64,000 bases of DNA from Liolophura sinensis (lineage: Eukaryota > Mollusca > Polyplacophora > Chitonida > Chitonidae): positions 7,059,435 to 7,123,434 of the forward strand of contig NC_088296.1 in NCBI RefSeq assembly GCF_032854445.1, read 5' to 3'. The notes below the pieces were generated by a model that ran no database searches, was not told the DNA's origin, and saw only the letters and a program-made list of their open reading frames with translations. The position numbers and the translations under genes were made by a program. Positions 6,559 through 28,650 of the stretch are shown here, in pieces; positions within the stretch are counted from its first letter, which is position 1, and each line of letters opens with the position of its first letter.

Positions 6559-6697
6559 AATTGGGTCATATTGAAATAAAAAAGAATTGTCTTTCCGTCA
6601 GTTTTTCTTTAAAATTCATTGGTGCTAACAAAATATGTGGCATTGCAATAAAGTGAAAAAATAGTTTAAAGCTACTGTTTTTCTCTATATATTACAG

Positions 6698-6940
6698 TGC
6701 TGCAAGAGAGGAACACATAAAAAGTACAAATTGCCCGTCACTGACCCAGATGACATTGGGTACAGACGTAGTTGGGCTGATAGTCCGTCTCCTTCCGCCA
6801 ATGGGGACAGTACCTTTGATACCAACACCAATAAAGTAGTTCCTTCAGAAGACTTGCGACGTGGAGAAGAATTATCGTACATAAATGAAGGGATGTATGT
6901 AAATGATGATGTTGAGGCCGGAAAACGAAATGGTGACTTG
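6698..6940 (+). CDS. Internal coding exon, probable juxtamembrane/cytoplasmic tail (tail A, exon 1)
   Basis: An 81-codon exon, phase 0 at both ends, bounded by a TATTACAG acceptor and a GTAAGT donor. It starts CCKRGTHKKYKLPVTDPDDI and continues with GYRRSWADSPSPSANGD. The Cys-Cys then basic start, followed by a hydrophilic Ser/Asp/Asn-rich stretch, fits the first cytoplasmic segment after a membrane helix. That is inference, because the transmembrane exon would lie upstream of the window. It joins in frame to the exon at 12183, giving a 111-residue C-terminus. The family is not recognised. LPVTDPDDIGYRR resembles LPLADPSIAVTGYRR in the exon at 27049, suggesting a duplicated or alternative tail. 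Confidence 0.62.
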
Positions 6941-6963
6941 GTAAGTCTCAAGGATTTCATTAC

Positions 6964-7090
6964 TTATGGTCATCAGTTATGGTCATCAGTTATGGTCATC
7001 ACTTATGGTCATCAGTTATGGTCATCACTTATGGTCATCACTTATGGTCATCAGTTATGGTCATCAGTTATGGTCATCAGTTATGGTCAC
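6964..7090. repeat. 12-bp tandem repeat (TTATGGTCATCA plus G/C)
   Basis: About ten copies of a 12-bp unit begin 23 bp after the donor of the preceding exon. The TCATCAGT core resembles the 27-bp array on the other side of that exon, so the two may share an origin. Confidence 0.9.
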
Positions 7091-7189
7091 TCCTAGTTCT
7101 ATTGCAGTGATATAATAATTGCTTTGTCTTGGTTTTAAATGTCAGGGTTCTGTACCATCTGTTTACACTTGCATGGAGCTGATGATTGC

Positions 7190-7270
7190 TGATAATTTGT
7201 GTTGAGTGTTAATTTGTGTTGGATGTTGATTTGTGTTGATGTTGATTTGTGTTGAGTGCAAACAGTACTA
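7190..7270. repeat. Short GT-rich repeat (TGTGTTGATGTTGATT)
   Basis: Four or five imperfect copies of TTGTGTTGAG/TTGATTTGTGTTGATG. No other function is visible. Confidence 0.6.
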
Positions 7271-7384
7271 TACACATGTGCATTCTCTTTCTTGAGATGA
7301 CGGATTTGGCGACAAGATACACGTTTAGGACACAATTACAACCGACATAGGACAAGCAGTGACAGAAATGGGATGAAAAACTGC

Positions 7385-7770
7385 CAGAATGGGACTTGGA
7401 AAAACCAAAATAGTGCCAATGAAAAATCAAAATTTAATAAATATTGGAATCCAGAAGAGGACAGATGACAATATACATGTAATTGGTAGGGCAAGTGACA
7501 CTTGGAAATGGACAAATGCCTACCAAAATGGGACAAATGTCAACCAAAAAAAACAAAAAGACACATCCCAACCAAAATGGGACAAATGCCAACCAAAATG
7601 GGACAAATAAAAGCTGCACTTGTACAAATGAGGAACAGTGTGAGACAAAATAATAAACAACGAACATATGAAAACCAAAATGGGATAACTGGAAATCAAA
7701 ATGGAAAAAATGAAGATCAAAATGAGTCAAATGACAGCCAAAGTTGGATAATTGACAACCAAACATACCA
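7385..7770. repeat. Low-complexity CCAAAATGGGACAAATG repeats
   Basis: Degenerate copies of AACCAAAATGGGACAAATGC (about 18-20 bp) with wandering spacing. Frames are open on both strands because the units are stop-poor, not because of coding signal. Confidence 0.65.
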
Positions 7771-8677
7771 GTGACAAACAGACTTTATAGCCAAATCCTC
7801 ATCAAGTCTTGTGAACATGAGCTCCATGCAGAGAGCACAGTATAAGTTTGTTTCACAACTGTGACAGTTCCTTGTGGATTGCCATGTTTACACTGCAATT
7901 GTATTTGACCCTGCCGAATTCGACCAGTCAAATGAAAATAGGACTTGTGCTACATTTGCAGAATTCAGCAAATCGCATTCTCTGAACGTGGCTAGACTTG
8001 TCCTATTTTTATTCCAGTTGTACAATTCAACAAGTTCTTTCAACAAATCGCACGATGTTAACATGGCTGTATGTTTGTGTGCTTTTGTTTGGTATGCGGA
8101 TTTGTCTTATTGAATGTCTGGGATTGGGGATGGTTAAATAAACACTGTTCTAAGATAATACCATATATCCTGCTGGTCCAGGGGTCTACATATTAACATG
8201 TAAATAGGCCTGCTCTGAATTACCTCCCTTTTATACGACAGCAGCTGTGATGTAAGGAGAGATAAGTTTTTGAGGCGTGAAACTACGAGAAGTGCGATCC
8301 GGCCTACTAAAGCATGCAGTATGTAGGTTATATCTCGACAACAGAATGTTAAAAAAAAAATGATATCATCCTTTCAGTGACGGCAATATCATCCTTTGAA
8401 AATCACAGAAATGTTGAGCGATCTTACATGCAGTAGATATTTTTCAGCTGATATATTTGATTGAGTTGGCCAAAGTTGTCTGTTGTATTTAATTAGTCCA
8501 AAATTTTTAAAATACCTCTGAATTGATCAAAAATATACATAGCATTCATGCTGGGCTTTCAAAATAAGTTTACAAAATTTTAAAATTTGTCTTATGCCCC
8601 TTTAGCTCTGAAACTTGTCATTAGCAATTTTCTAAGATAACCTTAGCTTACTTCTAAAAATACACCTTTTAAACAGG
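7771..8677. other. Intronic sequence, no gene seen
   Basis: AT-rich and unique-looking. A 79-codon open frame near 7874-8113 lacks splice signals and domains. The stretch lies inside the intron between 6940 and 12183. Confidence 0.4.
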
Positions 8678-8747
8678 TGGCCGCAGTCGTATAAGTGAAA
8701 TATTCTTGAGTACGGTGTAAAACACCAATCAAATAAATAAATAAATT
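8678..8747 (+). mobile_element. SINE family 1, 3' end only
   Basis: Carries GTCGTATAAGTGAAATATTC, then TTGAGTACGGTGTAAAACAC and a (TAAA)n tail. Severely 5'-truncated. Confidence 0.88.
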
Positions 8748-8898
8748 TAAACAGATGAGTAAAGAATTTTGGAACAGATTTAAATTTTAAAGAAAATTAT
8801 TCTTTGTGTTTCGTTTGGGAAAATTTTGGAAATTGCATTATAATTGAATTTAAAAAACACACTAGACAATTATTAGAATACTAGAATATTATTTGCAA

Positions 8899-9842
8899 AC
8901 AACAGTAGAGATAAACACCAGTGGAGATAAACACCATTCGAGATAAAGAACAGTAGAGACAAACAACAGTAGAGATAAACACCAGTGGAGATAAACACCA
9001 GTGGAGATAAACAACAGTAGAGACAAGCAAGAGTGGAGATAAACAACAGTAGAGCCAAGCAAGAGTGGAGATAAACAACAGTAGAGACAAGCAAGAGTGG
9101 AGATAAACAACAGTAGAGATAAGCAAGAGTGGAGATGAACAACAGTAGAGATAAACACCAGTGGAGATAAACATCAGTGGAGATAAACAACAGTAGAGAC
9201 AAGCAAGAGTGGAGATAAACAACAGTAGAGATAAACACCAGTGGAGATAAACAACAGTAGAGACAAGCAAGAGTGGAGATAAACAACAGTAGAGATAAGC
9301 AAGAGTGGAGATGAACAACAGTAGAGATAAACACCAGTGGAGATAAACAACAGTAGAGACAAGCAAGAGTGGAGATAAACAACAGTAGAGATAAGCAAGA
9401 GTGGAGATGAACAACAGTAGAGATAAACACCAGTGGAGATAAACATCAGTGGAGATAAACAACAGTAGAGACAAGCAAGAGTGGAGATAAACAACAGTAG
9501 AGATAAACACCAGTGGAGATAAACAACAGTGGAGATAAACAACAGTAGAGACAAGCAAGAGTGGAGATAAACAACAGTAGAGATAAGAAAGAGTGGAGAT
9601 AAACAACAGTAGAGACAAGCAAGAGTGGAGATAAACAACAGTAGAGACAAGCAAGAGTGGAGATGAACAACAGTAGAGATAAACACCAGTGGAGATAAAC
9701 AACAGTAGAGACAAGCAAGAGTGGAGATAAACAACAGTGGAGATAAACACCAGTGGAGATAAACAACAGTGGAGATAAACAACAGTAGAGACAAGCAAGA
9801 GGGGAGATAAACAACAGTAGAGATAAACAACAGTAGAGATAC
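8899..9842. repeat. 16-bp minisatellite, about 59 units
   Basis: Units are CAGTAGAGATAAACAC, CAGTGGAGATAAACAA, GAGTGGAGATAAACAA and CAGTAGAGACAAGCAA in varying order. Sixteen is not a multiple of three, so the same 16-residue pattern appears in all three reverse frames. That explains the overlapping reverse open frames of up to about 500 codons, which are not a gene. Confidence 0.95.
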
Positions 9843-9949
9843 CCTGGCTGTTTGTAGAAAGAGTAAAACTATTATTACTACTATTAATCAGTAACAACAT
9901 ATACGTGCATTTGCACTCAAACATGGTTACAGGTACATTTTGAATAAAG

Positions 9950-10348
9950 ACATGCATGTATGTGTGGTTAGGAAAAAGAGTAAAGGTATGCATGTATATG
10001 TGGTTGGGAGAAAGAATAAAGACATGCATGTATGTGTGGTTGGGAAAAAGAGTAAAGGTAGGCATGTATGTGTGGTTGGGGAAAAGAGTAAAGGTATGCA
10101 TGTATTTGTGGTTGGGGAAAAGAGTAAAGGTATGCATGTATGTGTGGTTGGGGAAAAGAGTAAAGGTATGCATGTATGTGTGGTTGGGGAAAAGAGTAAA
10201 GGTAGGCATGTATGCGTGGTTGGGGAAAAGAGTAAAGGTAGGCATGTATGTGTGGTTGGGGAAAAGAGTAAAGGTATGCATGTATGTGTGGTTGGGAAAA
10301 AGGGTAAAGACATGCATGTATGTGTGATTGGGAAAAAGAGTAAATGAT
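9950..10348. repeat. 36-bp minisatellite, about 11 units
   Basis: Unit is GGTATGCATGTATGTGTGGT plus TGGGGAAAAGAGTAAA, exactly 36 bp in the core. The unit length is divisible by three and lacks stops, so open frames run through on both strands (KGMHVCVVGEKS on +). I see no evidence of expression. Confidence 0.95.
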
Positions 10349-10687
10349 ATACATTGTACATGTAATTGGGAAAAAGACATGTTTTTAAGACCCTACTGGT
10401 GACACTTAATTCAGAGTTGGGTTGTCTTCATCCTAACCACTGAACCGTAGACCCAGAGCTTAATACTGTATGTGTATACATGTTTTTTGTGGTATGTGGT
10501 ATTTTTATGTCCATACCTGTTTTTGTCACGCATGCCTCTTGTCTTACGTCAATGTATGTTTGTTTGCTTCCCTAGGATAAAACTACTTCTTTATGATCTT
10601 AACTACATGGGACTGTTGCATGCTGTAAGTATACATGGAATGGAAATGTTGCTGATATGGTTCTGTTATATTCTGTTATACATATTG

Positions 10688-10990
10688 GGAGTGGGCCGTG
10701 GCCTAGTGGTTAATAAAGGTTTTTACCTTTCAACTGCTAGGACACACCAGGTGAGGGTTCAAAACCGGAACATGGGCAGGGAATTTGTGGATTCCTCCGT
10801 TCTTACTGCTTGTGGGGCCATGGTGACAATGAGCAGTAGATGACGCTCGTGTGGCTGTTTGTGCAGTCTTACGTTTGTCATAAGGCCACTTGGCTTTCAT
10901 CAGTATGGTGTGCATGTCTGTGTCACATGTGGTGAAGTTTGTCAGTAACTTGCCAAAGGTCGGTGGTTTATCCTGAACATACGAAAATGG
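10688..10990 (+). mobile_element. SINE family 2, tRNA-derived, near full length
   Basis: The head GGGCCGTGGCCTAGTGGTTA fits a tRNA A box and GAGGGTTCAAAACC about 45 bp later fits a B box. The body follows with GGGAATTTGTGGATTCCTCC, then AACTTGCCAAAGGTCGGTGG. The body differs from family 1. Related copies lie near 26.1, 26.9, 28.9 and 34.1 kb. Confidence 0.8.
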
Positions 10991-11009
10991 TCACCTTGGT
11001 CAATCCTCT

Positions 11010-11579
11010 GTTGTTTGGTATCACAAGCTTGATCTCAGAGTAAAAGAAAGCTAAAATTTGTAATAAAGTTCATGGTACAGACAGCTGAAAACTGTGCCTT
11101 AAAAAAACTCATTTTAATTTTCAGATCTTTTTTAAGAGTGTTGATAGGCATTCAAATATTTTAATACTATGGTGGCCATTATGTGCCATACTAACGGTAT
11201 CCAGAAACTCTGACGTCACATGACCTTTTGTTTTTAATGTTAAAAAAAAGGAAGGAATTTTTGGAAACAATGTTTCAGTAATCTTTTATTCATGGGTAAA
11301 AAGAGTTATTCCAACCTTCAGGGTTGTGAATAGAAGTGGAAAAACTTCGTGTGATGTCAGTGTTCCAAAACCCTGGTGGTATGGTCCATAAAGCCCACCT
11401 TAGAATTGAAATGTTTAAACACCTTTAACTTTTTTCACAAAAATCTGAAAAAAAGTAAATGGAAGTATATTTTATGCATAGTTTTAAATGATATATTCAG
11501 TGATAAATACTGTGATTTTTAGAAATCTTTGCCTTTAAGGGATAAACTGTAACTGACAAACTAGGTGTTTCCATCACTT
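11010..11579. other. Intronic sequence, no gene seen
   Basis: AT-rich. A CTGACGTCACATGACC stretch near 11211 contains a CRE-like TGACGTCA, but nothing nearby supports a promoter. Confidence 0.4.
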
Positions 11580-11950
11580 GGCACTCATATGTTGAGTGAT
11601 TGAGTGAGGTATCATGTCTGTGTTGGGATAAAGTGTGTGACTAGGGTGTGCTGTGGGGTGTCATGCCTGGTGTCATTATGCAGTGACTAGTTGGGATGTC
11701 ATGTCAGGTGTAAGTATACCATGACTTGGTGTGGTATCCTGTCTGGTGTCAGCATACAATGACTGGGTGTGATGTCATGTCTAGTGAGAGTGTGCAGTGA
11801 CTAGCTGTGGTGTCATGCCTGGTGTCAGCATTCACATACATTGACTGGGTGTGGAGTCATGTCTGATATCAGTATACTTGGCGAGGGGTCATGTCTGATG
11901 TCATTGCGACTCGTTTGGGTGTCATGTGAGGTGTCATTAACATGGTACTT
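11580..11950. repeat. Degenerate tandem repeat of about 35-50 bp (GTGTCATGTCTGGTGTCA)
   Basis: Eight or so imperfect units contain GTGTCATG-CTGGTGTCA and CAGTGACTGG. Spacing varies. It lies about 230 bp before the last coding exon. Confidence 0.7.
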
Positions 11951-12182
11951 TATGGAGGCAGCACAATAGATATGTCTGCAATGTGACCTGTGACTAATAC
12001 AAGAAGACCACTTTTGTGATCCACCCAGATCTTTTGGAACAATATTGAACCCAGAGAAAGGCAGATAAAAAAATAATAGGGATGAAGTGAGAAGACAATT
12101 TACCATTGTTCCTGCTATAATGTTCTTATTGTTTTGGTAAAATAATATGGATTATTTTTTACTGTTTTTTTTTTACCTTCAG

Positions 12183-12275
12183 GAAACTGAGTTTTCAGCA
12201 TTCAAAGAAAAAGAATTCACAAGCAGCTCCTTCCACCCACAACAAGCAAATGGAAGGTCTGAGAGCAACATGTAA
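12183..12275 (+). CDS. Terminal coding exon of tail A
   Basis: A long T tract and TTTACCTTCAG precede the exon, which is in phase 0 and joins the exon ending at 6940. It encodes 30 residues, starting ETEFSAFKEKEFTSSSF and ending GRSESNM, then TAA. The last four residues, ESNM, fit a class I PDZ ligand (S/T-x-hydrophobic). PDZ binding is inference only. Protein family unknown. An exon between 6940 and 12183 cannot be excluded. Confidence 0.6.
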   Translation, partial: ETEFSAFKEKEFTSSSFHPQQANGRSESNM

Positions 12276-14716
12276 TATGCATGTATAAACATAAAAGTGG
12301 ACAAATCCATTCTGTCTCAGAGGAGGTAGAGACGACACAGTATTGCTACTGGGAGTTTTGGAGCATTCACGAGAAATGCTGAAATGATAATTCAGCATTT
12401 CTGTTTTCTCATTTTGTGCATCGTTTTTATTCTTATAAAATGCAATATAAAATGCTATAAATGTATAATATCATGGGATTGCATGTGTGAATGTGTATTA
12501 TAAAGTGTGTATGTCTTTTTTTTTTGTATGGTATAAAAAAGAGTTTTTTTTTTTCTCAGTGTGTATGGAATGTTATGTACATTTGGAAGCTATGCATTTT
12601 AAAGTGCTATTTGGTGTAATATATTTGTGAGCTATGCATTTTTATACACTGCTGTCTCGTTTTATATCGCATCAGTGTACGCTCAGTTTTACATATGTAT
12701 TGTTATTAGGTTTAAAACATGTTTATTCAGGACAGTGCATTACTAATCTGTCTAAAATTTTACAGAAGTGGATTATGTATCGTTTCACACGATATTAGGT
12801 GAATTTTTTACGAAAATAATTCAAATAATTTCTGGAAAATTTTATTCACAAGAATGGTTTTCTATATTTTCGTGACTCTGTTCCCTAATTTGTGGGAAAT
12901 CTGTTTGTGCAAAAATTCACAAAGAGTGACTTTTTTAAGGAACACAAGAAGTTGCAATAACTGTTACAAAAAGAATAGAAATATCAGGAGAGAAAGAATG
13001 TTTTTTGGTAGACACGTAGCAAATATGTTCTTGAAAAGTTGCTTTTGCTGAAGAAATCTTACATGTTGGAGTCACCTTTGACAAGAAAGGCTCTACTGGT
13101 GAAGTAACTTGTATTCTATTGTAACGTTAGATGGTGAAGTCACTTTTGGCCTACTGGTAGATTTTGAAGTCACTTGAAACATACCAGTAGGTGGCGAAGT
13201 CACGTATAACATACAAGTAGGTGGTGAAGTCACTTGGATAGGGCATTCGTGTGTCAAGAGTTCTGGGTAGCCAAAAAATTTTTTTCTCAAAAAACGTCTT
13301 GTGGTGTAAAAAGTCTCTCTGTCACAAGAAAAGTTGAAGAGCCTTCTATTTAAAAAGAAAAGGAAAATTCCCTTGAGGGAATAGATACTGAGGGACAAGA
13401 TTGACTTTCTTATGTCTACTTAAAGATTTTTTGCTAAGTGGATTCACTGCTTCCATTGACAGAAAAGGCTGCTGTTATGCTGTTTTCTTGATGAAAAACA
13501 AGAAAACTACTCATGAATGGACGTTGCAATAAATCATGTTTCCCATCTGTGTAAATGCACATAAACCATTGCAGAGAGGAGAATCCATTTGCAAGGTAAA
13601 TATATAATTGCAAAGACATAAATATAGTGTTGCAAAATTGCATAGTATAGCCAGTCACGCTATACTGTCTCTGTTGAAAGGGGTCTTTACTCTGCATCCA
13701 AAATATATATGTATAATTACGAGTTCATTTTTGTAAAGTGTACATGATTTCTGATAGTTTTTGTTAATATAATCCACTAGTCATGTTTACTCAACCGTGA
13801 CATGTGATGAACTAAAGTATTGACCCCCTGATAATGGGATTAAATACATTTGTGGTATTTTAATTTGTCTCTATCTCAAAATGTTTAGAAAGATGAATAT
13901 TTCTTGATACCTGGCGTGCAGAAGAACGTGTTTTTTTGAAGAAAATGTGTTTTATGATGTGTTATCTTTTTGAAAATCAAAGTGGTTCATGCATGTGAAT
14001 GTATAGAATTCACGTATGGCATTGCTTCATCTCATCTGAATGGACGTTGACGCTGGATCTCGCATGGGTGGTGTATTTTCACATGACTTGGTGTGGTTGA
14101 TTTTTTGGGGGGAGGGGGGGGGGGAATTTGTGCGTTGTGTTTAAATCCATTAAATCGAACATAGCCACTATCCTGGAGAACAAAATCTTCCATTTGCTTC
14201 TGCCAACAGCTTGCCTCAGTTTCATCTTACCTTTTATCTTCTCTCTTTTATTTTTAGTATTTTCTGTTTTTAATAATAATAATCAATGGAAGACATCTTG
14301 CAGTGTACACTAAATAAACAATTATTATTAAAAGGTAATGTATGCGGCATTGTCTGGTAAAAGCCAGCTTCAAACTTCCTCACGACAGCATCAATTTTCA
14401 GCTGATTAAAAAAATATTTTATCCATGGAATTTAGGAGGTTGACTCTTTTATTTTATAAAAACAATGCTGATCTTGATTTCTTCATTTAATCATGATAGT
14501 TGTGATCATTTATTGTATTTGTTATATTGCAAATGTTCCTAACCACATTTGTATATCTTTAACTCTTAATACTGTCTTGTCTCAAGATTGTATCGGCAAC
14601 ATCTGTGAGAGCTGACAGAAGTACTGTTATATACATATTGTTTGTAAATATTAACATTTTGTATATATTTATGTATAAAAAAATCACCTGGGGAAACACC
14701 ATGATATATTAATAAA
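12276..14716 (+). other. Candidate 3'UTR of the tail A gene
   Basis: AT-rich, SINE-free sequence follows the stop codon. AATAAA signals lie at 14313-14318 and 14711-14716, either of which could end the transcript. Poly-T, poly-A and G-rich tracts (near 14107) occur. The 3' boundary is inferred. Confidence 0.4.
13085..13235. repeat. About 36-bp imperfect tandem repeat (GGTGAAGTCACTT)
   Basis: Five copies of a unit with GTAGGTGGTGAAGTCACTT and an ACATAC or CTACTG spacer. They lie inside the candidate 3'UTR. Confidence 0.65.
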
Positions 14717-14849
14717 AACCTCATTTACACCAATATTGTTATGCTACTTTTGTTTTCCCTTTTTTAGTTTTTGTATTTGTTTTTATTACATGTATATGGC
14801 AGGTTATGTATTATTATTTTCCCTTCTTATATGCCCTGATCATACACAT

Positions 14850-15660
14850 CAATATACTCCAGAGGGAACGGCCAAACCTCATTGCTGTGTAATTTATGCC
14901 TCGAAACAAACTGAGAGAAAAAAAAACACACTAAAGACCAACCATTATGTAAGGCCTAAGGTGTAAGAACAAATATGTTTTTGTATAGCAAAATTTGCTA
15001 TTAGTTTGCGCGACAGTGAACTTTTTTCTAGATAACCAATTCTTACTCTAAAGTTACATCCAGTTGCTTGGTTGCACATAGGCAAGGTGTTTTTGCTCAA
15101 ATGTGGAAATCCATTTAAATATACAACATCCATGATTGCAAATTTACATCTATATTATGCACGGTAGGTCAATCTCGTAAACCCACAGCAGATATTGCAT
15201 TTGTACGATCTGTAAGATCTATTTGTAAGAGTTTTTTTTAAGACCTACTCCATTTATCTTTATGAAATATTTGCGGTACTTTCCTGTGTCGTGAAATGCA
15301 GACACACATTCAGTATATTGTGAAAATATAAAACAAAGGAAAAAGAAAAAAATTCACGCTGCAAGCGTCTAGAATGTTCCGGAGAATCTTGATATTCTTT
15401 CCCAAAAGAGGGATTTTAGGAAAACAAGTCATAAAAAAAAATAAATAAATCTATGTGTGTTACCTGACCCATTGACTTTCGTTATACGTCGCTTTCGGCA
15501 TAAAATTTGACTAGTGTGGAAGTTAACAGATGTATGCTGAATCGTAGATATAGGTATCAAGGATTCTGTGACAAATCCATTCAATGAATTCATTAAAAAT
15601 GTCTTTATACAACAATGAGGTTTGACTATTCCTTCCGAGTGTTTTATCAATAAACCTCAA
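14850..15660. repeat. Inverted-repeat-flanked segment
   Basis: CCAAACCTCATTGCTGTGTA near 14872-14891 and the reverse complement of about 15603-15622 (CAAACCTCATTGTTGTATAA) are near matches, and both lie next to a CGGAAGGAA/AGAGGGAACGG-type block. The interior of about 700 bp is unique-looking. It could be a decayed foldback element. Confidence 0.4.
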
Positions 15661-16448
15661 CTACATTGAATTCCTTCGATATATATCCACCTTTGCTAGA
15701 CTGAAAGGAAACCACAGACTCTCCAGGCGGTCGGGGCCTATACGTGTACGCTGTACGTACTGTACGCCAGGAGGGATAGTTTTAATTTTGTGATTGTAAA
15801 TTATCCTTACATGGACAGCAATATATCGAAGTGTCCTGCACATGACGTGTACATATTTCGTGTGACAGCATTTGTTAGATCCTGTGTCTCATATGACAAT
15901 TTGAATCAACGTCACAATTTAATCTATCTTCATCATTGTGTCCATTTCCGCTTTACTGGGGGCTAGAGGCCGTATGTTCATCGTGTTGAATTAAATCGCC
16001 GCGTTGTATATATGAACAGTTGCAATCAAAGCGCAACTGAGATACTTATTGTATTATCGACAACTTATATTCTAGCGTGGTACACGATTTGAATACTGAT
16101 TTCACTCAGTAGGCTAGAATATACCTTGCGTCTTTCCAACCTCACGGAAAACTGCACGTTGGCTGCTTCCCTTTGTATGATTCCGTCCTGTTTTTGTACT
16201 TCATATTCTTTCTTAGTTCTTTGGTGGTTTGTGTTATACGTCGTTTTGGGAATTGGCCCTAGGGATATTGACCAAGAACGTCCATCTTGGTTGACAGCGA
16301 GTACCCGAATGTCTATTTCGACGCATATAGATTCGATTCTCACTCTTGGATTCACAGTCGTGTATGTGTGAACATACTAGTAACCGACGCGATTTTATTG
16401 TCACGTATATTGATACCAAGCAACGAAGAATTTAAAACCTCAATGATA
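15661..16448. other. No gene seen; contains an interspersed repeat at about 16200-16340
   Basis: Sequence around TCGTTTTGGGAATTGGC, AACGTCCATCTTGGTTGAC and TTTCGACGCATA recurs at about 48745-48840, and its first part recurs in reverse at about 24622-24655. This is an unnamed repeat family. A 96-codon reverse frame spans it, but the other copies do not keep the frame open. Confidence 0.5.
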
Positions 16449-17164
16449 ACGGTATCATCCAATATCTGGATTGCATGTAGTAGATATTGTCTCATTAATA
16501 CAGGTATCATCCAGTATCTGGAATGCATATAGTAGATACTGTCTCATTAATACAGGTATCATCCAATATCTGGATTGCATGTAGTAGATATTGTCTCATT
16601 AATACAGGTATCATCCAATATCTGGATTGCATGTAGTAGATATTGTCTCATTAATACAGGTATCATCCAATATCTGGATTGCATGTAGTAGATATTGTCT
16701 CATTAATACAGGTATCATCCAATATCTGGATTGCATGTAGTAAATATTGTCTCATTAATACAGGTATCATCCAATATCTGGATTGCATGTAGTAGATACT
16801 GTCTCATTGATAACGGTATCATCCAGTATCTGGAATGCATATAGTAGATATTGTCTCATTAATACAGGTATCATCCAATATCTGGACTGCATGTAGTAGA
16901 TATTGTCTCATTAATACAGGTATCATCCAGTATCTGGAATGCATACAGTAGATATTGTCTCATTAATACAGGTATCATCCAATATCTGGATTGCATGTAG
17001 TAGATATTGTCTCATTAATACAGGTATCATCCAATATCTGGATTGCATGTAGTAAATATTGTCTCATTAATACAGGTATCATCCAATATCTGGATTGCAT
17101 GTAGTAGATACTGTCTCATTGATAACGGTATCATCCAATATCTGGAGTGCATATAGTAGATATT
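16449..17164. repeat. 52-bp minisatellite, about 14 units
   Basis: Unit is CAGGTATCATCCAATATCTG, then GATTGCATGTAGTAGATATT, then GTCTCATTAATA (52 bp; 16501 to 16553). Variants such as GATAACGGTATC and GAATGCATATAG occur in a partly ordered pattern, indicating block duplication. Confidence 0.95.
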
Positions 17165-17572
17165 CGATGAGGTATTTGATAGTTCTAAAACGGTAGTATA
17201 TGCACCTACTTCAAAAAGCAAATATATGTACCGGTTTTTACACATGTGATTGTGTAGTGCGCGATGTGAACATAATATGGTAAACATTAAAAGTGTAGTT
17301 ACATAATGATGACGTACCAGGGGCACAGCATACAGAACACTGTACAGCATAGAGAGTAAAACAAGAGCATGTAGCCACGAGAGTCTGATATTTGGTTAAT
17401 GGTCACACGTACTACGAGCGAATCGAAGTACGGCTTGTAGTCAGTTTACCTCAGATGTGTTTTTTTTTATCCCAAAGCACCACTCGTCTTCCATTTGTGC
17501 AAATTGGTACACATATTTTTACACTCACTTTTGAAGAGTCGCCCATGTCGACTGTCTTAAATATGTATATTT

Positions 17573-17668
17573 AACAGAATAATCTGCTGTAATTTCATTT
17601 TAGAGTACATTGTAGCATTACTCAGACAACACACTTTCTGTTAAATTTAACAGATTTTTTTGAGTGTA
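17573..17668. mobile_element. MITE-like palindromic element, half copy
   Basis: Matches the right arm of the foldback family: AATAATCTGCTGTAAT, then GCATTACTCAGACAACA, CTTTCTGTTAAATTTAACAG and TTTTTTTGAGTGT. The left arm is missing. Confidence 0.7.
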
Positions 17669-18157
17669 TCCAGAATATCAAGATCCGCTGTTTTAAACGT
17701 GTTTTAAACGTGTATATATAAACACATCGACAGTATTCATATGCACACGTATAGAGGCTGTGTTAAGAAGGTTGTAACCGGCCTTACATAGCACAACTTA
17801 GAAAGTGATTAACAATGCTTTCCTGAAGCGGAAAAAAATGCACGCAAAATATACATGAATACAATGGCCGACAATGACGCCAGGGTTCAATATGTACATG
17901 TACACATGCGAGTTTCATACAAATGTCAAAGGTTATAGGCTATACATTCATTTTACTACTCTCTAAAAACTACCCCTGTATTCATGTATGGGTGGTACAC
18001 AGTAGAGTAGCGAAAATGTACACGCAAATAATTTTGTTCACCAGCAGTAGGCCTACACAAAAATGGACAGTTTTCAACATTACAAGTGTGCTCTACAAAT
18101 CGTGTACTATGTACATGTCTTGGTGTTAATTTGTACCTATGATCGCTTGTAGAGAGG

Positions 18158-18515
18158 ACACTAAAAATAATCCTTTAATTTTAACAGAAAGTCTGTTGTC
18201 AGAGTGTTGTTACGACGTCTTCTGCTATTGCAACAGATTATTCTGTGAAATATAAATATATAGTCTATTAATTAAATTCTATTAGACTTACAGGACATTA
18301 TGTTGAATATGACACAGTAGTATGTTATATTCTATTAATTCAACATAAAAATTCTATTAGACTTACAGGACATTATGTTGAATATGACACAGTATTATGT
18401 TACATTCTATTAACTCAACATAAAAATTCTATTAGACTTACAGGACATGATGTTGAATATGACACAGTATTATGTTACAATTATGTTAACATTAACAGAT
18501 TAATTTTTTGAGTGC
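18158..18515. mobile_element. MITE-like palindromic element with internal 75-bp triplication
   Basis: Starts ACACTAAAAATAATC-TTTAATTTTAACAGAAAGTCTGTTGTCAGAG as two adjoining blocks and ends AACAGATTAATTTTTTGAGT, the inverse of the start. The centre holds three direct 75-bp copies (starting 18276, 18351 and 18426) built on ATTCTATTAGACTTACAGGA and TTGAATATGACACAGT. Copies near 20 kb and 36 kb have a single central unit. Confidence 0.75.
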
Positions 18516-18654
18516 ATACATGTCTATGTAAGTGTGCAAATTTGTACCTAGTCGCTTTTAGAGAGTAGTGTAGGCCCACGAGGACTTTGTTTTGACTTTT
18601 AATCGAGTTATATAGGAACAGGGGTAGAAACAGATGTGATGTGTTTTTATAGAC

Positions 18655-18760
18655 AGCTAGGAACCGACTTGTATAGGTGGGAAATGCTGAGCTATCACAC
18701 ACGTTAACTATATAGGTCGCGTGTTCAATCCAGCTCTCGTTGAGTCGACTGTTTCTCATA
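18655..18760 (+). mobile_element. SINE-like family 4 fragment
   Basis: AGGAACCGACTTGTATAGG through GTTCAATCCAGCTCTCGTTG matches the reverse complement of about 23440-23525. GTTCAATCC resembles a tRNA B box. Confidence 0.6.
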
Positions 18761-19364
18761 AAAGTACTGGTGCAACCAGCCCCCCCCCCCCCACTTTCCA
18801 TATCACAACCCTATACCCCTTCCACACGATAGTCTATACACCGACGTCTTACATGACCTATAACCCATGTGTTGCCTCGAAATTATATTAGTGCGACGTC
18901 TATCATCAATATGATGAACAAACGGTAGCGGGGCCAACATGTAGCTAACAAGCCATACAGTCACAGACATTTTTTGTGACGCGCTTGCTGACGTTATAAA
19001 TACATTTTAATCTGGAATTCTTGCAAGGCCTTACGATATGCAATATTAGAGCAACCGGAAACACATGTCGCGTGACTCGTACCCCATGCACGCACATATG
19101 GTTCAAAAAAAGAGGTTGCGGGTGACGTAAGCGGAAACAGCTGCGTTCTCAGGTTGTCGAGATAACTCGAGCCTGGTTGGATCAAAACTGATAACATGGA
19201 GGAACTTTTGATTTTCTCAATGTCTGCAATTTTGCTTTCTTTGAACTGCGATATCTTGACTAAGCAACATTACAAAAATAATATAGAATGCTTTTTAAAC
19301 TCCTTGTGGCATACTCTATCGATTCATATAAACATGTACGTTTGTGTGGTCTTGTCTATTTTGG
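18761..19364. other. No gene seen
   Basis: Contains a run of about 12 C near 18780. Otherwise unique-looking sequence without a supportable exon. Confidence 0.4.
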
Positions 19365-19486
19365 GGTGGGTTCGGTCGTGGGTTTCCAAGAGCTCTGTCC
19401 GTTTTCCTCCCACCAGAATGCTGGCCGCCGTCGTATAAGTGAAATATTCTTGAGTATGCGTAAAACACCAATCAAATAAATAAATA
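19365..19486 (+). mobile_element. SINE family 1, 5'-truncated
   Basis: GGTCGTGGGTTTCCAAGAG, CCTCCCACCAGAATGCTGG, GTATAAGTGAAATATTCTTG and a TAAATAAAT tail. Confidence 0.88.
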
Positions 19487-19740
19487 TGTCAAATATGCGC
19501 ATGAAGTGCATACTTAAAAAGCGAATTGACTCAATCAGTCATGCAAACAATGAATAAATAAATCTTTTCGTTTAGGTATAACTATATATGTGAGCTGATA
19601 TAAATGTAGTACCACCAGTGTTGAGCCCAAACTGATGAATTGTACACATGGGCATCGGCAGCCCTGTATATTATATTATTAGGCCTAGTGTTGTGCTCTC
19701 ATGGCTAATACTCAAACACTGACGGCTATATGCCCAAAAC

Positions 19741-19946
19741 GGGGCCTCTGTGGCTCAGTTGGTTAGGGCAGCGTAATGACCCAGGACCTCTCACCATTGC
19801 GGTCGCTGTGAGTTCAAGTCGAGCTCATGTTGGCTTCCTCTCCGGCCGTAAGTGGGAAGGTCTTGCAGCAACCTGTGTAAAATAAGTGAAATATTCTTGA
19901 GTACGGCGTAAAACACCAATCAAATATATAAATAAATAAATAAATT
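19741..19946 (+). mobile_element. SINE family 1, intact ends with internal deletion and target-site duplication
   Basis: The tRNA-like head carries an A box (TGGCTCAGTTGG) and a B box (GAGTTCAAGTC). The body jumps from AGCAACCTGTG straight to AAAATAAGTGAAATATTC, losing about 70 bp relative to other copies. The tail is (TAAA)n. The element is flanked by TATGCCCAAAAC at 19729-19740 and 19947-19958, a perfect 12-bp target-site duplication. Confidence 0.92.
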
Positions 19947-19988
19947 TATGCCCAAAACAAGTTACAATTTTATTATCTGCTTGCGGAG

Positions 19989-20238
19989 TACAGTAAAAAA
20001 ATCATCTACTAATTTTAACAGAAAGCCTGTTGTGTGAGTGATGATAGAATGTATTCTTTTGTTATAACATAATACTGTCATATTCAACATAATATCCTGT
20101 TAGTCAAATACAATGGATATGTTGAATTAATAGAATATGTGTGTTATATTTAGCGGAATAATCTGTTGTAACAGCAGAATACATTCCAGCATCACTCAGA
20201 CAACAGACTTTCTGTTATCAGATTGATTTTTTGAGTGT
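19989..20238. mobile_element. MITE-like palindromic element, about 250 bp
   Basis: Left arm ACAGTAAAAAAATC, then TTTTAACAGAAAGCCTGTTG. Right arm CAACAGACTTTCTGTTATC, then TTTTTTGAGTGT. The arms are inverted copies about 85 bp long. The centre has ATATTCAACATAATATCCTG. No coding capacity, as expected for a non-autonomous foldback or MITE. Confidence 0.78.
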
Positions 20239-20529
20239 AATGCTTGGCGTTTCAGTATATATCCGTATCTCCAGTTTACCTATGGCGCGGATAAATACAC
20301 TACAGATCCTATATACTAGTATACGTCTGTTTCCTTATCGAATAAACATTGATTCTGTACTTTCAGGGCCACAATGGGTATCAGGGGCAGGTCACCCATA
20401 TTAACAATACAATAATGTGACGCTTGTTGATTTTAGCTGGGTCACTGGGCAACAGGTTTAACAACAGCTTCTTCAGTCAGTAAACCCCAACATTAAGCTC
20501 TCGTCAGGCAATATGGTGTTGTATAAATC
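20239..20529. other. No gene seen
   Basis: Short unique-looking spacer between a MITE-like element and a SINE. Confidence 0.4.
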
Positions 20530-20690
20530 ACGCCCGTACGTGGGGAGGTTTGGCAGCAACCTGCGGATGGTCGTGGGTTTCCCCTGGGCTCTACCCGGTT
20601 TCCTCCCATTATAATGCTGACCGCCGTCGTATTTGTGAAGTATTCTTGAGTACGGCGTAAAACACCAACCGAATAAACTAATTAATAGAA
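20530..20690 (+). mobile_element. SINE family 1, 5'-truncated
   Basis: CCCGTACGTGGGGAGGTTTG, GGATGGTCGTGGGTTTCCCC, AGTATTCTTGAGTACGGCGT and a weak AT-rich tail. Confidence 0.88.
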
Positions 20691-21504
20691 ATCAGGCGAG
20701 ATTTGCTCTGATTCATGTGTTGCAAAGTTCATATACTTCTGACTGTTTGTTTGTTTGGATTAGAAAGTCGTTTTATAATACCGATATGTCACTTCTTACC
20801 TTTTTTCACGATATATACTATATAGGTATCAGCGTCAGCATAAACAGTGATATGAATCTGACAGACAGACATTTAATGTGAATTTATTTCTGCACGTTTC
20901 TTCGCGAGTATATCTTGGTATCAGAGGGACAGAAATGCTACTACGCCATGTTCAGATCCCAGCTAAAATCTGAGTTGTGTTTAGACCTACGCTGATTAAA
21001 TGGTATAGCAAGGAGTATATTTTAGACTTAATTAGTTAAGAACGATATAGACCCCGTTTGAACATAACCATTAGTTGGTCTGAATTTTTACCTGTAAGTT
21101 GAGTAAATGCTGTCAGTACCATATACACGAATAAAGCTTAATAACGAAGAGATTTAACTACCACTTGAAACATATGTTTAACACAACATATAATACAGAC
21201 CATCACAAAATATCACAGTATTTACAGCTTTGAGAGTGAAACGAGAGCAGCGACGACAGTTAACAATTGACAAATAGTCACGCGTAACCGGTGTCAGTTT
21301 ATCCCAATTAGGGTTTTAATTTAACTGTTAATTTAAATTTGTAAATAATGGTAACTTACACCCACCTATAGCACCATGACTTAAGTAGATTTTGTTGAAA
21401 AACTGAAGGTTAAATTAATGTATACAGTGATGTTAATTGCAATTTATTTGATGTCACTTGTCTACAATTACTCAAAGTTACTCAACATTAATGCTGTGTT
21501 ATTC
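20691..21504. other. No gene seen
   Basis: A segment near 21356-21440 (ACCTATAGCACCATGACTTA, then GTGATGTTAATTGCA) resembles 46365-46425, suggesting an old shared repeat. Otherwise unassigned. Confidence 0.4.
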
Positions 21505-21670
21505 GTCATGATATCATACGCATCATCAAAATCGTCATGATATCATACGGATCATCAGAATCGTCGTGAAATCATACGGATCATCAAAATCGTCATGATA
21601 TCATACGGATCATCAGAATCGTCGTGATATCATGCGCATTATCAAAATCGTCATGATATCATACACATCG
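21505..21670. repeat. About 29-bp tandem repeat, 6 copies
   Basis: Unit is CGTCATGATATCATACGGAT plus CATCAAAAT, with variants GTGAAATC and GCATTATC. The internal ATGATATCAT is palindromic. Confidence 0.85.
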
Positions 21671-22079
21671 TCAACCTCATACACAGCATAAAAACAATGC
21701 AGAGGGATCAGTCTGTGTACCGCTGAAGCGTGGTGTGTCACTTAGTCATTATTTTACTTACGCTTCTAACGGCCTCTAACAACGCATGACCTTTTCTAGC
21801 ATTCACCAATTAATTGCCTTGGTAATGAATTGCATATGTATATACATATATATAGGCCTAGTGTAAACATACGTGTATTTACGGAAATAAATCACCATAA
21901 CAAACTGACCCTGGTGGATCGAGCCCAGTGTAGCATAACAAGTGACCTCATTCAAAGGACAGCTTCGATCTCTCATCTACGCACTTGTTATTCTAATGCA
22001 TTTCACTTGTATGCATTCTGTGCAGTGTTTAATTCCAGGCACAAGGTCACATTTTCCCGTCAATCGATATGCCTCACCC

Positions 22080-22329
22080 CAATAGCGCCTCATTCGCATA
22101 ATTCTGCCTCGTGCGGGTCAAGTTCGCCCTCCAATAGAGCCTCACAGAAAATCTTCCATTGGGATCGCGTGCGCCCTTTCCGAGTATCATATTCAGTTGG
22201 CCCTTCCTTCTACTCTCGTTTTCTCCGCTAATCTGCTTCAGCAGCCAAGGTCATCTTTGCCTTCATCCTTCGTTGTGTTCGCAGTTGGCTTGACAAAGAG
22301 GCCGGCAAACAAGCCTGATTTACAAGCGG
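22080..22329 (+). other. Possible non-coding first exon with strong donor
   Basis: A locally GC-richer, stop-poor stretch ends AAGCGG followed by GTAAGT at 22330. No in-frame ATG precedes the donor in the frame open across it, and its end phase (1) does not match the phase-0 exon at 27049. A 5'UTR exon is possible; chance is equally possible. Confidence 0.25.
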
Positions 22330-22409
22330 GTAAGTTGTCATCGCCGTTTTGGGGGCATTGCCCAAGATTGCGAATTAAGCGGTGCACATCGAGCTTTTCT
22401 ATATATTAG

Positions 22410-23219
22410 TCTACCAGCGTACAGGCTGTGTCTGCCAAGAATCACTGAGTTTTGGACGCATAAATTAATCATCGAGTGACTCTGACACATACTCGTCCGT
22501 GGGAGGTTAAAGTGTGCCGATGTAAGCTAAGCTAAGCTAAGCTACATGCAAGTGTTCTTCACTCTCTATGGCTGGTTTCTACGCGGACAGCACTGACTGA
22601 TACAGATGTTCATGACCCTTTAATATTTGTTACCGTACAGTGCAAATGTCCACTGCTTGGACACGCTGGGTCAGTACGTACTTGTTCTTGAACTACGTAC
22701 AGGTTCTGCTACTGAGTTGAATGAAGAATCAGGCTTATTGTGGATTTCCATGGACAACTTACACACTCCGAGTCATGCCAGCCATGTACACGTAGGCTTT
22801 GTTGAACGTATTATATAGCATGCACAAACATTCGGCCTAAGGACTTCATGCAAGCAGCTTTACGTTCTGTACCAAAAAAGGCTTAGTTGAACTGATCTTT
22901 TGGGGACGAAGTATAGTGAAGATGGCCGTATCACGGTTATGAACACTGCTTATATTTCTAGGCTTCTATAGGCTATAAACTCATGGACGTATGTAGGAAC
23001 CGTGAGTCCATAATTCTGATTACGGGCATATATATAGTGTAGTCACGTACCATAAGACATGTATAGGCCAATGAACTATCATTGAATCAACACCTTTTGA
23101 CCACAATTATGTGACCTATCTAACATGTGGTCAAATAGCCGTGGAATTAAGATAGACGATTTTAATCCCTGATATAGCCGTATTATCTATTGCCCACTGA
23201 AGGTCATCATCATTGGTAC
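22410..23219. other. No gene seen
   Basis: Contains (AAGCT)n near 22525. No exon or element is supportable. Confidence 0.4.
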
Positions 23220-23300
23220 TGTACAAATATGGGCATCTGGCCGTGGGTATCTGGCGGTGGGTATGTGGCCGGGGGTTTCTGGCCGTGGGTATCATTGCAT
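23220..23300. repeat. About 16-bp GC-rich repeat (TGGCCGTGGGTATC)
   Basis: Four or five copies of CTGGCCGTGGGTATC with variants. Confidence 0.75.
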
Positions 23301-23329
23301 ACAACTTTAGGTTTAACAATCGTGCACCG

Positions 23330-23530
23330 TATAGATGAATGAATGAATGTTTGGGGTTGAGCGTCGTATCTAACAATGTTTCAGTCATTGTGAGGTTGGG
23401 GCTGATGTATCAGCACGATCATTACCACGGCCCATCCAACGAGAGCTGGATTCGAACCATAGACCTATGCAATTAGTAGGCGTGGTTGCTCTTTATATCC
23501 CGCCTACACAAGTCGGTTCCAAGCTAAATC
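23330..23530 (-). mobile_element. SINE-like element, tRNA-related head in reverse orientation
   Basis: The left part (GAATGAATGAATG, then GTCGTATCTAACAATGTTTC and AGTCAT) resembles family 3 bodies. GGATTCGAACC is an exact reverse B box. The right end pairs with 18655-18745. A tRNA-derived SINE is likely; the A box is weak. Confidence 0.6.
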
Positions 23531-24346
23531 TTTACATATATAACGTATATGTATCTGTTTTACAACAAGAATGGGACATTTTATTAATTTCGCCCAGAAA
23601 ATAATACAACAGATTATAAGCGAAAGCCTGATTTAAAGTATACAAGAAACGCTTTGGTTTTTAGGTTTGCTTGAAAGTACAAGAACGCTTCTCGGCTTAC
23701 CTCTTGGTGCGAAACAATGTCTTACACTACAGTTTTCCCATGGCCCCGTGCAGTCAGTCCGGAAATTAAGTGTACAGTAGCCTGCTCTGGTGACGTAAAC
23801 GGTGAAATCTGTCAACACAAACTTTGTTGATGGAGATGCCCAATAGGTGGCGTTAAGCTGGTCTGGCGTTACCAGTATGTCCACGGATGACGTCATTTCC
23901 GACTATTTCCACAAGTGACGGAAAACATACATTAAATAGAGGGGTAATAAGAAATATAGAATATGCCTTAAGAATGTTTTTTGTTTTTCTCATTTTTTTT
24001 TCTTATATTGCTTCTTTTTCCTTGAAACCATACTCTTCGATTTATAGTACCTCTTAATGTATCCGCTAGACAGCTTCTTGATCCCTGGGGCCACGCGTGT
24101 ACCATTGTTTTTACTGTGTTTGCACAACTGTGCTAGTGTGATAACACTGATGTTCAGATACACATATACACGCACGTTTGCAATACTTCCTCATTCACGG
24201 TTTGAACCACATACTACTTCAGTGATAAAATCTATCAATTTATTATGTAAACTGATAGTAATTGTTGATAATTTTAATCAAGGAAGAAGAGTCATATAGC
24301 TGGGATCAGTATATATGAACGCGAGATGTATAGTTTTCATGCAGAT
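23531..24346. other. No gene seen
   Basis: An 87-codon reverse open frame (23633-23896) has no recognised domain or splice context. I do not call it. Confidence 0.35.
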
Positions 24347-24348
24347 TT

Positions 24349-24436
<88 letters not shown>
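24347..24436. repeat. (TA)n microsatellite, about 45 units
   Basis: Uninterrupted TA dinucleotides. Length is likely polymorphic and error-prone in assembly. Confidence 0.97.
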
Positions 24437-24441
<5 letters not shown>

Positions 24442-26132
24442 TAACTGTGTACAATATATACAGTAACGCCAATGTGCGACTAATGATTTAGGTACTCAAA
24501 CAAGCTAAGCTATAAACACATGCTCGATGCAATGATAGAATCTATGCGCCGAAACAGACATTAGTATACCAACCGTCAACCAGTAAGAAGGTTCCAGGTC
24601 AATAATCACAAAATAATAATAATCCCAAAACGACGTATAACGCAAACTACCAAAGAACCAAGTAAGTATATAAAGCATGAAATTACACCGGAATCATGCC
24701 AAGAGAAGCAGTCAGCAGTTTTCAATGATGTTTGAGGTATGTTCCAGGCGAATGGGGAAATCAGTGTTGTAAGCGTGTCAGTTGTCAGCAATGAAATATG
24801 TATCTCAGGTGCGCTTTGATTGCAAATATTCATTCATACAACGCGGCGATCTAGTTCAATGGCGTTTATAGATGCGATGTATAAGGCGCTATATAGGACA
24901 TTAAGAATTAATGCAGGATAGCGCGTGCAATATATATCCAGGCCCTTTACAACTGGAGGCTGCAGAGTGAATGATAGCTTTGTACATATTGCGCACCTGA
25001 GCGTATTGGATTGTCTCCCCCTTGTAACGGTAAAGGTTCAGCCCAAACTGCGGGCAATAAAATTTTGTACATAAGTTGTGTCACGTACCGTTTGTTTAGT
25101 GTGCGAACTTAATGTGATTATCACGTATTTTGATGCGCATTTTACACACCAATAGGCAATGTAATTTAAAGTTACAGGTAAAGTCGTTGCATGTTATATG
25201 GCTATACGTCAATACAGTAATTTTTCTAGATTTACCCCAGTACTTTTAACTGTCGTATAAAATACTGTAAAAATGTGTATATTGCGCAGTTTTTGTTGTG
25301 ATATTGCATACTAGTAGTCTCAAATGCTTTCGACTTACATTTTCTATACCAAAGCCGTGATTGATTGAAATAAATTTTCTAATGTTCAAAAGTTTTGAAA
25401 TTTACCTCTCCCTTCAAAACTGTGCTAAGATTTTAGCCTGGTATTTAATTAGGATAAGACTGGTATTAAAATTTAAGCCTGGTTTAACTTTAATACACTT
25501 TGAACAACTGTCTGCTGGCCGCCATTAGTTAACCACATGTATTGCTATCAGATGACGTCATTCCTGCATAAAAATGCACGTGCCACACCTAGTTACCACA
25601 GGCCACTCGTCTGGTTTTCTTTGAACGCGGTCGCCACCACATGGTTGCAAAATTGCCGATGTAGCGTTAAGCCATAATTATTCATTCATTCTTTGAACGC
25701 GGCTTATCGATTTCGTGGCATGTTTTCGAGAACTGTTTACACAGTATTAAACCTAAGAATCGATTTCCAGGCGCAAGATTTCAGAAATACATAATATTTA
25801 TACATAGGCCAATATGGTATATTTACTGGATTCTAAATATGTGCAATCTCGATTTACACATTGCACAAGCTATAGACCTACAAATCTACCAACTTCTCGC
25901 CAGTGCGTGTGTAAATGAAACAAGTAAATGAAAAAATGGCATGGTAAATTGGCTTCAATCCCCCACTTTCTTCAAAAGCAGCCAATTTTGTTAGGAAAAC
26001 GCTGGACTTTCGCTTTGTTTGTAATTTTCCTCTACCTTCACTATGATGAATAAGTCAGAACTATTCACTCCATTGTTTTAGTTTTATCCGCGACATTCAG
26101 TCCCCTTCCTGGAAATATCTTTGCCATTTTGT
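24437..26132. other. No gene seen
   Basis: About 1.7 kb of mostly unique-looking AT-rich sequence. About 24622-24655 is a reverse fragment of the repeat also seen near 16.2 and 48.8 kb. Confidence 0.4.
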
Positions 26133-26285
26133 TCGCCGTGGTCCAGTGGTAAGAAGCGCCTGCCTTTCAACAGATGGGACACATGAGCTGCGGGATCAAA
26201 CCCGGCACTGGACAGGGAATTTAGTAGATTCCTCGCTCTCACTTCCTGCTCGTGGGACTCTGGTCGCACGAGCAGGCGGACAACA
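26133..26285 (+). mobile_element. SINE family 2, 5' half
   Basis: The head GCCGTGGTCCAGTGGTAAGA has an A-box-like TGGTCCAGTGG, and GGGATCAAACCC is B-box-like. GGGAATTTAGTAGATTCCTC follows, as in the copy at 10688. Confidence 0.78.
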
Positions 26286-26844
26286 GTTTAAAGGCATGGA
26301 AAACACTGAAATGAAGTATTTATCAGATGAAAGAACATTAAATATTGCCCGGGAAAATAGTTTATTTTTTTTAGAATATTTCTAACCGACTTAAATCTAT
26401 TAAAACGTAGAATTCTATGATGGTCTGTTGGGACCCAGAGGGTATCAGTGACGTCACAGCAACATTTTTGGCTTGAAATGGTTCGTTTCAAGGTCCATTT
26501 TTTAAAAATCCATTTACAGCTCTTAATGAAGATGCACTTTGAATGATGAAATATAGCAGTCTATGTGTGTCAAGTGGCAAAAAGCTGAAGTGACATCACT
26601 GGTCCCAATATGGTCAGAAAAGACCACAGTAGGATCCAAGGTTTTAAACTCATTTTACTCGGTCGAAAAATATTCTAAGTAATAAATCAAAATCAAATTT
26701 CGCTGACAATGTTTAACGGTCTTGCATCTTACACGTCCGTCATATTAGTATTTTCTTTGCGTTTAAACTTCGTTGGACCATGCACTTGCCTTGAACCAAT
26801 ATGATTCGCCAATCTGTTCTTCACGTGTGGAAATATAACTTCGT
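26286..26844. other. No gene seen
   Basis: AT-rich sequence between two family 2 SINE parts. A CAGTGACGTCACAGC stretch near 26447 contains a CRE-like TGACGTCA without promoter context. Confidence 0.35.
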
Positions 26845-26985
26845 CAGTTACATTGCAAAGGTCAGTGGTTTACGCCATGCAACCCTGCTCCGTCCATTTA
26901 TAAAACTTCCCGCCATCGTATGTGAAACGTTCTTGAACATGACGGTGAACAATAATCCAAAACATATATAAATAAATGAATAAGT
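26845..26985 (+). mobile_element. SINE family 2, 3' part
   Basis: CATTGCAAAGGTCAGTGGTT, GTATGTGAAACGTTCTTGAA and an ATAAATAAATGAATAA tail. Confidence 0.65.
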
Positions 26986-27048
26986 AAAAGCGCCAGGGAT
27001 CCATATTTCTGAAACTGACAAAATCATATCCTTGGTTTCTTCCCTCAG

Positions 27049-27189
27049 TGTGGCGGCTGCAGACGAGATTCGGACTCCACTCCCGCGATAACCCCTAAGC
27101 AGAGCGAGAGGCGGAGACAGTCATCTGTGGCGTTACCTTTGGCAGACCCGTCCATAGCTGTGACCGGTTACAGGCGGGACGACCCCTTG
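27049..27189 (+). CDS. Internal coding exon, probable cytoplasmic tail (tail B, exon 1)
   Basis: A 47-codon exon, phase 0 at both ends, with acceptor TTCCCTCAG and donor GTAAGT. It begins CGGCRRDSDSTPAITP and contains RRRQSSVALPLADPSIAV followed by TGYRRDDPL. The Cys-rich basic start mirrors the exon at 6698, and LPLADP...GYRR aligns with LPVTDP...GYRR there. Phase 0 at the 5' end would let either exon splice to the same upstream donor. It joins 28038-28132 and 29481-29670 in a consistent frame to give 142 residues. Family not recognised. An independent duplicated gene with its 5' part elsewhere is the main alternative. Confidence 0.62.
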
Positions 27190-28528: not shown

Positions 28529-28650
28529 CAAAGATTTATTTATTTATTTGATTGGTGTTTTACGCCGTACTCAAGAATATTTCACTTATACGACAGCGGC
28601 CAGCATTATGGTGGGAGGAACCCACGACCATCCGCAGGTTGCTGCCGGAC
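28529..28650 (-). mobile_element. SINE family 1, reverse, truncated
   Basis: (ATTT)n tail, TTGGTGTTTTACGCCGTACT, AGAATATTTCACTTATACGA, then the GGTGGGAGGAACCC block, in which part of the usual sequence is deleted. Confidence 0.9.

Follow-up and report, generated by a model that had tools for sequence, protein, structure and literature searches.

Candidate alternative cytoplasmic tails of a SEA-domain, mucin-like membrane protein encoded in the genome of the chiton Liolophura sinensis

The 64,000-nucleotide stretch of Liolophura sinensis DNA considered here, referred to as the window, comprises positions 7059435-7123434 of contig NC_088296.1, and was analysed together with 100 kb of upstream and 20 kb of downstream sequence as a region of 184 kb. 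Coordinates are those of the window, minus-signed values denoting positions upstream of its start in the same genome. The window contains two sets of plus-strand exons, A (A1-A2) and B (B1-B2-B3), which are candidates for alternative cytoplasmic tails of a single SEA-domain, mucin-like membrane protein, the ectodomain and transmembrane exons of which lie upstream of the window. Exon structures, splices and tails are predicted here from genomic sequence. The original prediction, made from the window itself, had proposed that the two sets may represent duplicated or alternative tails of one gene, entered from a common upstream donor.

Ectodomain exons are located between -25 and -8 kb and comprise four SEA units together with a long repeat exon. 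All four assembled SEA units exceeded the cut-off of the Pfam SEA model (PF01390; 26.4 bits), with scores of 30.9, 51.0, 52.4 and 31.7 bits, the first unit being scored as a half that comprised two of its three exons (profile positions 2-55 of 106). Exon 1 ends in phase 0 and exon 2 runs from phase 0 to phase 2 in each of the four units, and a third exon starting in phase 2 was found for three of them, ending in phase 1 in both cases where a donor was placed. No position was assigned to the first unit's third exon; a weak profile match at -23064 (E 0.012) may correspond to it. The third exons that were located start with PGSII, EGSVI and QGSVA, and three units hence carry GS[IV] at the position of SEA cleavage. 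Analysis of the 184 kb region with the SEA-unit profile revealed 12 places at E <1, every one of which is upstream of the window; the only three matches inside the window have E-values of 1.9, 2.9 and 4.7 and are taken as chance. Sequence comparison of the SEA units with the Protein Data Bank returned nothing useful, and a genome-wide search for the SEA family returned one weak, sub-cut-off match on another contig and recovered none of the present units, indicating that the latter search is insensitive to exon-split domains and therefore uninformative with respect to paralogues. No signal-peptide exon, sought between -99900 and -24800 as an ATG with a hydrophobic segment and a phase-1 donor, passed the filter; the exon may lie elsewhere or escape the filter. 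Transposase-like open frames are present at -30820..-28882, in the upstream flank, and at approximately -4594..-4375, in the intron that precedes the transmembrane exon, and we take these to be pogo-like and Tc1-like.

The transmembrane exon is entered in the phase in which the last SEA exon is left, has a 19-residue peak hydropathy of 3.16, and ends with FIYLIVML at a phase-0 donor (position -2009, base 7057425 of the contig). Since both A1 and B1 are phase-0 exons, this donor is in frame with either tail, and thus fits the common upstream donor that had been proposed. The transmembrane exon provides no stop-transfer basic residues after the helix, whereas A1 and B1 each contain them, adding CCKRGTHKKYK and CGGCRRDSDST, respectively, such that either tail would be able to complete the membrane anchor.

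Translation confirmed that A1 and B1 both run from phase 0 to phase 0 and start with Cys plus basic residues, that set A ends with its own stop, and that set B is continued in frame by B2 and B3, as originally predicted. Exon A1 is bounded by the acceptor ...TATATATTACAG and the donor GTAAGT, and its peptide starts with CCKRGTHKK and ends with GDL (in fuller form, CCKRGTHKKYKLPVTDPDDIGYRR...SYINEGMYVNDD...GDL). Tail A contains two Y-x-N sites, YINE and YVND, and a hexamer search of the presumed 3' untranslated region behind its stop located AATAAA at positions 13528, 14313 and 14711. The B1 peptide reads CGGCRRDSDS...LPLADPSIAVTGYRRDDPL, ending DDPL, and B2 and B3 keep its reading frame open; there is no Y-x-N site in tail B. 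Pfam gave no match to either tail at E up to 1, and the best Protein Data Bank matches were no better than chance (E 1.3 for tail A and 1.1 for tail B). The DNA of A1 had no match in the genome besides A1 itself, the tail B protein searched against the 609 Mb genome at E up to 10 identified only its own three exons (3/3 scored candidates), and tail A had no relative among viral contigs. A 27-base tandem repeat of approximately 103 copies occupies positions 3798-6556 of the intron before the tails, stopping some 140 bases short of A1, and more long repeat arrays lie between A1 and A2 (8897-9841 and 9945-10344).

Table 1. Positions of the exons and associated features of the locus, in window coordinates.
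Feature	Position	Strand	Remarks
Pro/Thr/Ser-rich repeat exon, Thr-rich repeats of type TTVANVTEMYNATTESVQPTRPAE	-15202..-13608	+	from sequence
Last SEA exon	-8177..-8026	+	ends in phase 1
Transmembrane exon, STLPPTTKAPAEESSWLPGWAIAVIVCSCILFVFFIYLIVML	-2136..-2009	+	phase 1 to 0; acceptor 5.3, donor 6.8
Possible 33-base phase 0-0 microexon VMSTQENGDVM, between transmembrane exon and A1	5..37	+	weak; acceptor 3.2, donor 4.5, coding 2.4
A1, first tail exon of set A	6698..6940	+	243 bases, phase 0 to 0
A2, terminal coding exon of set A	12183..12275	+	acceptor 8.7; open until stop at 12275
Presumed 3' untranslated region of set A	12276..14730	+	hexamer search; putative cleavage site
B1, first tail exon of set B	27049..27189	+	phase 0 to 0; donor GTAAGT
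B2, EFSQIDDLSFLKATTFRLCRTRNDRPNSLSE	28038..28132	+	ends in phase 2; acceptor 6.4, donor 4.5, coding 2.3
B3, YAESLDKLPAIIDAEEQGENHG...PVPEYLRECLLTN	29481..29670	+	returns to phase 0; acceptor 4.8, donor 1.3 (weak), coding 14.5

The extent to which these exons stand above chance differs between them. A naive scan for internal exons on the plus strand of the 184 kb, with codon usage modelled on five of the window's open frames, returned 38 candidates with scores of at least 8, among them B1 (24.4), A1 (14.2) and B2 (13.2). The top candidate of the minus-strand control in the window scored 14.3; B1 is clearly above this control, whereas A1 and B2 singly are not, and the support for the latter two is therefore that of length, phase, strand and chaining combined. 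Exon B3 is absent from the scan list because of its weak donor. One filter applied to both strands of the 184 kb gave 10 candidate phase 0-0 internal exons (seven plus, three minus), two of which, A1 and B1, start with Cys plus basic residues, a feature that was set as a criterion only after these two exons had been seen.

Both A1 and B1 contain L-P-x-x-D-P and G-Y-R-R, and a search pattern derived from the two exons themselves, with a gap of 0-8 residues, has two occurrences in the six frames of the 184 kb, namely the A1 and B1 sites. The spacing had been described as nearly the same in the two exons, but the gap from DP to GYRR is three residues in A and five in B, and the motif occupies residues 12-24 of A1 and 29-43 of B1, which is 17 residues deeper in the latter. 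Local alignment of the first exons gave a score of 33 against a shuffle mean of 22.8, equalled in 63 of 2000 shuffles, and for the full tails the local score was reached by 360 and the global score by 139 of 2000 shuffles. The common motif would accordingly count as weak evidence of homology, and, given the shuffle results together with the differing gap and position, the tails are not treated as duplicates here. Thus, of the proposed single gene with duplicated or alternative tails, a fitting donor was found, but the shuffles lend no support to the duplication.

Next, the interval between the two sets was searched for parts of a separate gene. As had been noted from the window, no ectodomain exons were apparent there: the SEA profile gave no match at E <1, and a hydropathy scan of 12276-27040 revealed no convincing transmembrane exon. 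A phase-0 transmembrane candidate at 14948 was rejected (donor 1.4, codon score -24), as were three others in this interval with other-frame ends or weak donors. Internal exons with a phase-0 donor above the thresholds numbered zero on the plus and zero on the minus strand of 12276-27040, whereas nine passed in -10000..6690, the transmembrane exon being the best of them and some of them wrong-frame or transposon readings. Phase-0 candidates started by ATG numbered five in 12276-27040, compared with two and three in two control stretches, with a best score of 4.9 against 3.5 and 5.4 in the controls. These negatives indicate that the transmembrane exon, or A1, is the likeliest donor for B1; they are compatible also with a very short, non-coding or weakly spliced first exon for set B.

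At its 3' end, set B has several possible continuations. Left unspliced at 29670, B3 would finish with VCSHHM and a stop, and if spliced to 29962 or 29974, both of which are weak acceptors, it would end with ...YFDAFSVKDSL and a stop; the first AATAAA downstream of B3 is at 32843. A single-exon open frame of 324 codons lies at 30006-30980, and neither matches Pfam at E up to 1, nor the Protein Data Bank above chance level, nor has a relative among viral contigs; a single-sequence fold of its product gave a mean predicted local distance difference test (pLDDT) value of 36.8. This frame was rejected as a continuation of B3, as none of the 22 AG acceptors at 29713-30073 reaches it from 29670, and acceptors in 29690-30100 score 0.1 at most. 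By our own arithmetic, splicing of B2 to 29999 or 30014, skipping B3, does enter the frame, the two acceptors scoring -1.3 and -1.1.

The best supported interpretation of these data, held with modest confidence, is that sets A and B encode alternative cytoplasmic tails of one SEA mucin-like membrane protein. The window would then start in the intron between the transmembrane and tail exons of one plus-strand gene for a type I membrane protein, the ectodomain exons lying 8 to 25 kb and the transmembrane exon 2 kb before the start of the window. At the phase-0 donor that follows the helix, the transcript would be spliced either to tail A, with its own stop and poly(A) signals behind it, or, with tail A skipped, to tail B. 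The ectodomain would probably be cleaved within SEA, as in human MUC1, may then be held non-covalently, and would be coupled to two different cytoplasmic outputs, since the YINE and YVND sites of tail A are of the type expected to bind GRB2 when phosphorylated and tail B is without such sites. The Cys-rich starts of A1 and B1 could mediate homodimers in the manner of the MUC1 CQC sequence, or be acylated.

A number of observations weigh against this interpretation. The link between set B and the SEA gene is drawn from the failure to find alternatives, and splicing of the transmembrane exon to B1 would require a 29 kb intron that bypasses A1 and A2 as well as the AATAAA signals following A2. 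The donor of B3 is weak, the 3' end of set B has more than one candidate position, and the splice model behind the exon scores was typed by hand from general knowledge. Splicing of A1 to B1 would also be in frame, hence the two exons may not be mutually exclusive. Base composition differs as well, in that GC content at third codon positions (GC3) is 0.58 ± 0.04 in tail B compared with 0.435 ± 0.022 in the SEA and transmembrane exons, a figure from which the long repeat exon (GC3 0.34) was excluded. Tail A has a value of 0.40 ± 0.05, and the frame at 30 kb, at 0.54 ± 0.03, is closer to B. Such a difference would be consistent with B belonging to another gene, although the transmembrane exon alone, with 42 codons, has 0.64; four further exons or frames in the window gave 0.49 ± 0.015.

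Accordingly, B1-B3 could be exons of another gene on the plus strand, one that has a promoter of its own and a missed first exon, perhaps together with the frame at 30 kb, an explanation that we regard as possible but rather unlikely. It would account for the codon usage of B being nearer to that of the 30 kb frame than to that of the SEA exons; a first exon may be short or lack coding sequence, a candidate of 45 bases being present at 22285-22329, and the phase 2 end of B2 allows entry to the 30 kb frame through the weak acceptors described above. However, B1 requires a phase-0 donor, which neither the 45-base candidate, ending in phase 1, nor any internal exon in 12276-27040 supplies, none of the 22 acceptors tried from the end of B3 leads into the 30 kb frame, and a Cys/Arg start directly after an acceptor has no obvious reason unless it is spliced from the transmembrane exon. 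Still within one gene, A1 might be common to all transcripts, the choice being between A2, for a short tail, and B1-B2-B3, for an extended one. The length and phases of A1 permit this, but the Cys-plus-basic start of B1 looks juxtamembrane and would be needless behind A1, and this arrangement is judged improbable. Least probable of all is that set B is what survives of a tandemly duplicated SEA gene after loss of the ectodomain. The motif common to A and B, their similar starts, and a neighbourhood that duplicates in tandem, with parts of 36.5-56 kb copied at 65-84 kb, would all be expected from such an origin. A tandem gene duplicate, which the original prediction had named as the alternative, is nonetheless disfavoured, as the search between the sets gave no convincing second ectodomain, transmembrane exon or exon with a phase-0 donor, and the only genomic match to tail B was tail B; in addition, the tails have no wider similarity, and the B frames are open with splice sites, the codon scores of B1 (15.2) and B3 exceeding those of A1 (6.6) and A2 (4.0), with B2 lower.

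The tandem segmental duplication in the neighbourhood begins beyond set B and pairs 36512-55768 with 65336-83971, the copies lying 28-29 kb apart with main blocks 82-94% identical. Each copy contains a RING/B-box (TRIM-like) gene and another gene. RING and B-box zinc fingers, a coiled-coil-looking exon and a SPRY domain (54152-54874, 56094-56324 and 61048-61548) indicate a TRIM-like gene. A dispersed short repeat ending approximately GTATAAGTGAAATATTCTTGAGTACGGCGTAAAACACCAATCAAATAAATAAA, with the look of a short interspersed nuclear element, occurs in both orientations, copies being spotted by eye at 822-890, 8680-8745, 19380-19480, 20540-20680, 28529-28620, 37680-37820 and elsewhere. Rfam and tRNA scans of the window returned nothing.

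Alternative tails are known to provide a single receptor with two signalling outputs, and MUC16 and other SEA mucins have several SEA domains in one mucin, a likeness drawn in the present case from the Pfam SEA model alone. The predicted protein has features of a SEA mucin, namely SEA domains, Pro/Thr/Ser repeats and a single helix after the last SEA unit, with autoproteolysis predicted from the GSI and GSV sequences. The proposed arrangement resembles that of CD46 and MOG, in which one ectodomain and transmembrane segment are reported to be joined to different cytoplasmic ends by splicing (PMC4124149, PMC2156149). Unlike in those genes, the sets described here are approximately 15 kb apart, each is a multi-exon block, and both are predicted from genomic sequence. 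To our knowledge, CD46 and MOG are without SEA domains or mucin repeats of this kind.

The closest layout is that of human MUC1, which is reported likewise to have tandem repeats, a SEA domain close to the membrane that contains a GS-V type motif, one transmembrane helix, and a tail with a Cys-plus-basic start (CQCRRKN) and a Y-x-N site (YTNP) (PMC9564314, PMC4877578). According to these papers, self-cleavage of MUC1 takes place between the G and the S of GSVVV (PMC9564314), phosphorylated YTNP is a binding site for GRB2 (PMC4877578), and the CQC start of the tail mediates homodimers (PMC9564314, PMC4877578). The present gene differs in having four SEA units as opposed to one and a second candidate tail set downstream, and the tails were compared by eye only; the gene is not assigned as a MUC1 orthologue. 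At the level of titles and abstract openings, the literature yielded no report of a SEA mucin with alternative tails in invertebrates. It is conceivable, albeit doubtful, that an invertebrate SEA mucin, with a tail unrelated by descent to that of MUC1, has reached the same layout of an auto-cleaving SEA domain near the membrane, a Cys-basic juxtamembrane start and Y-x-N docking sites, with the addition of a switch between a docking and a non-docking tail. If true, the MUC1 layout, presented as a mammalian emergence (PMC9564314), would have a further, independent instance, and one mucin, through a single transmembrane exon, would exist in two forms that signal differently. If the tails are alternative, a single surface mucin of an invertebrate would be connected to two intracellular outputs.

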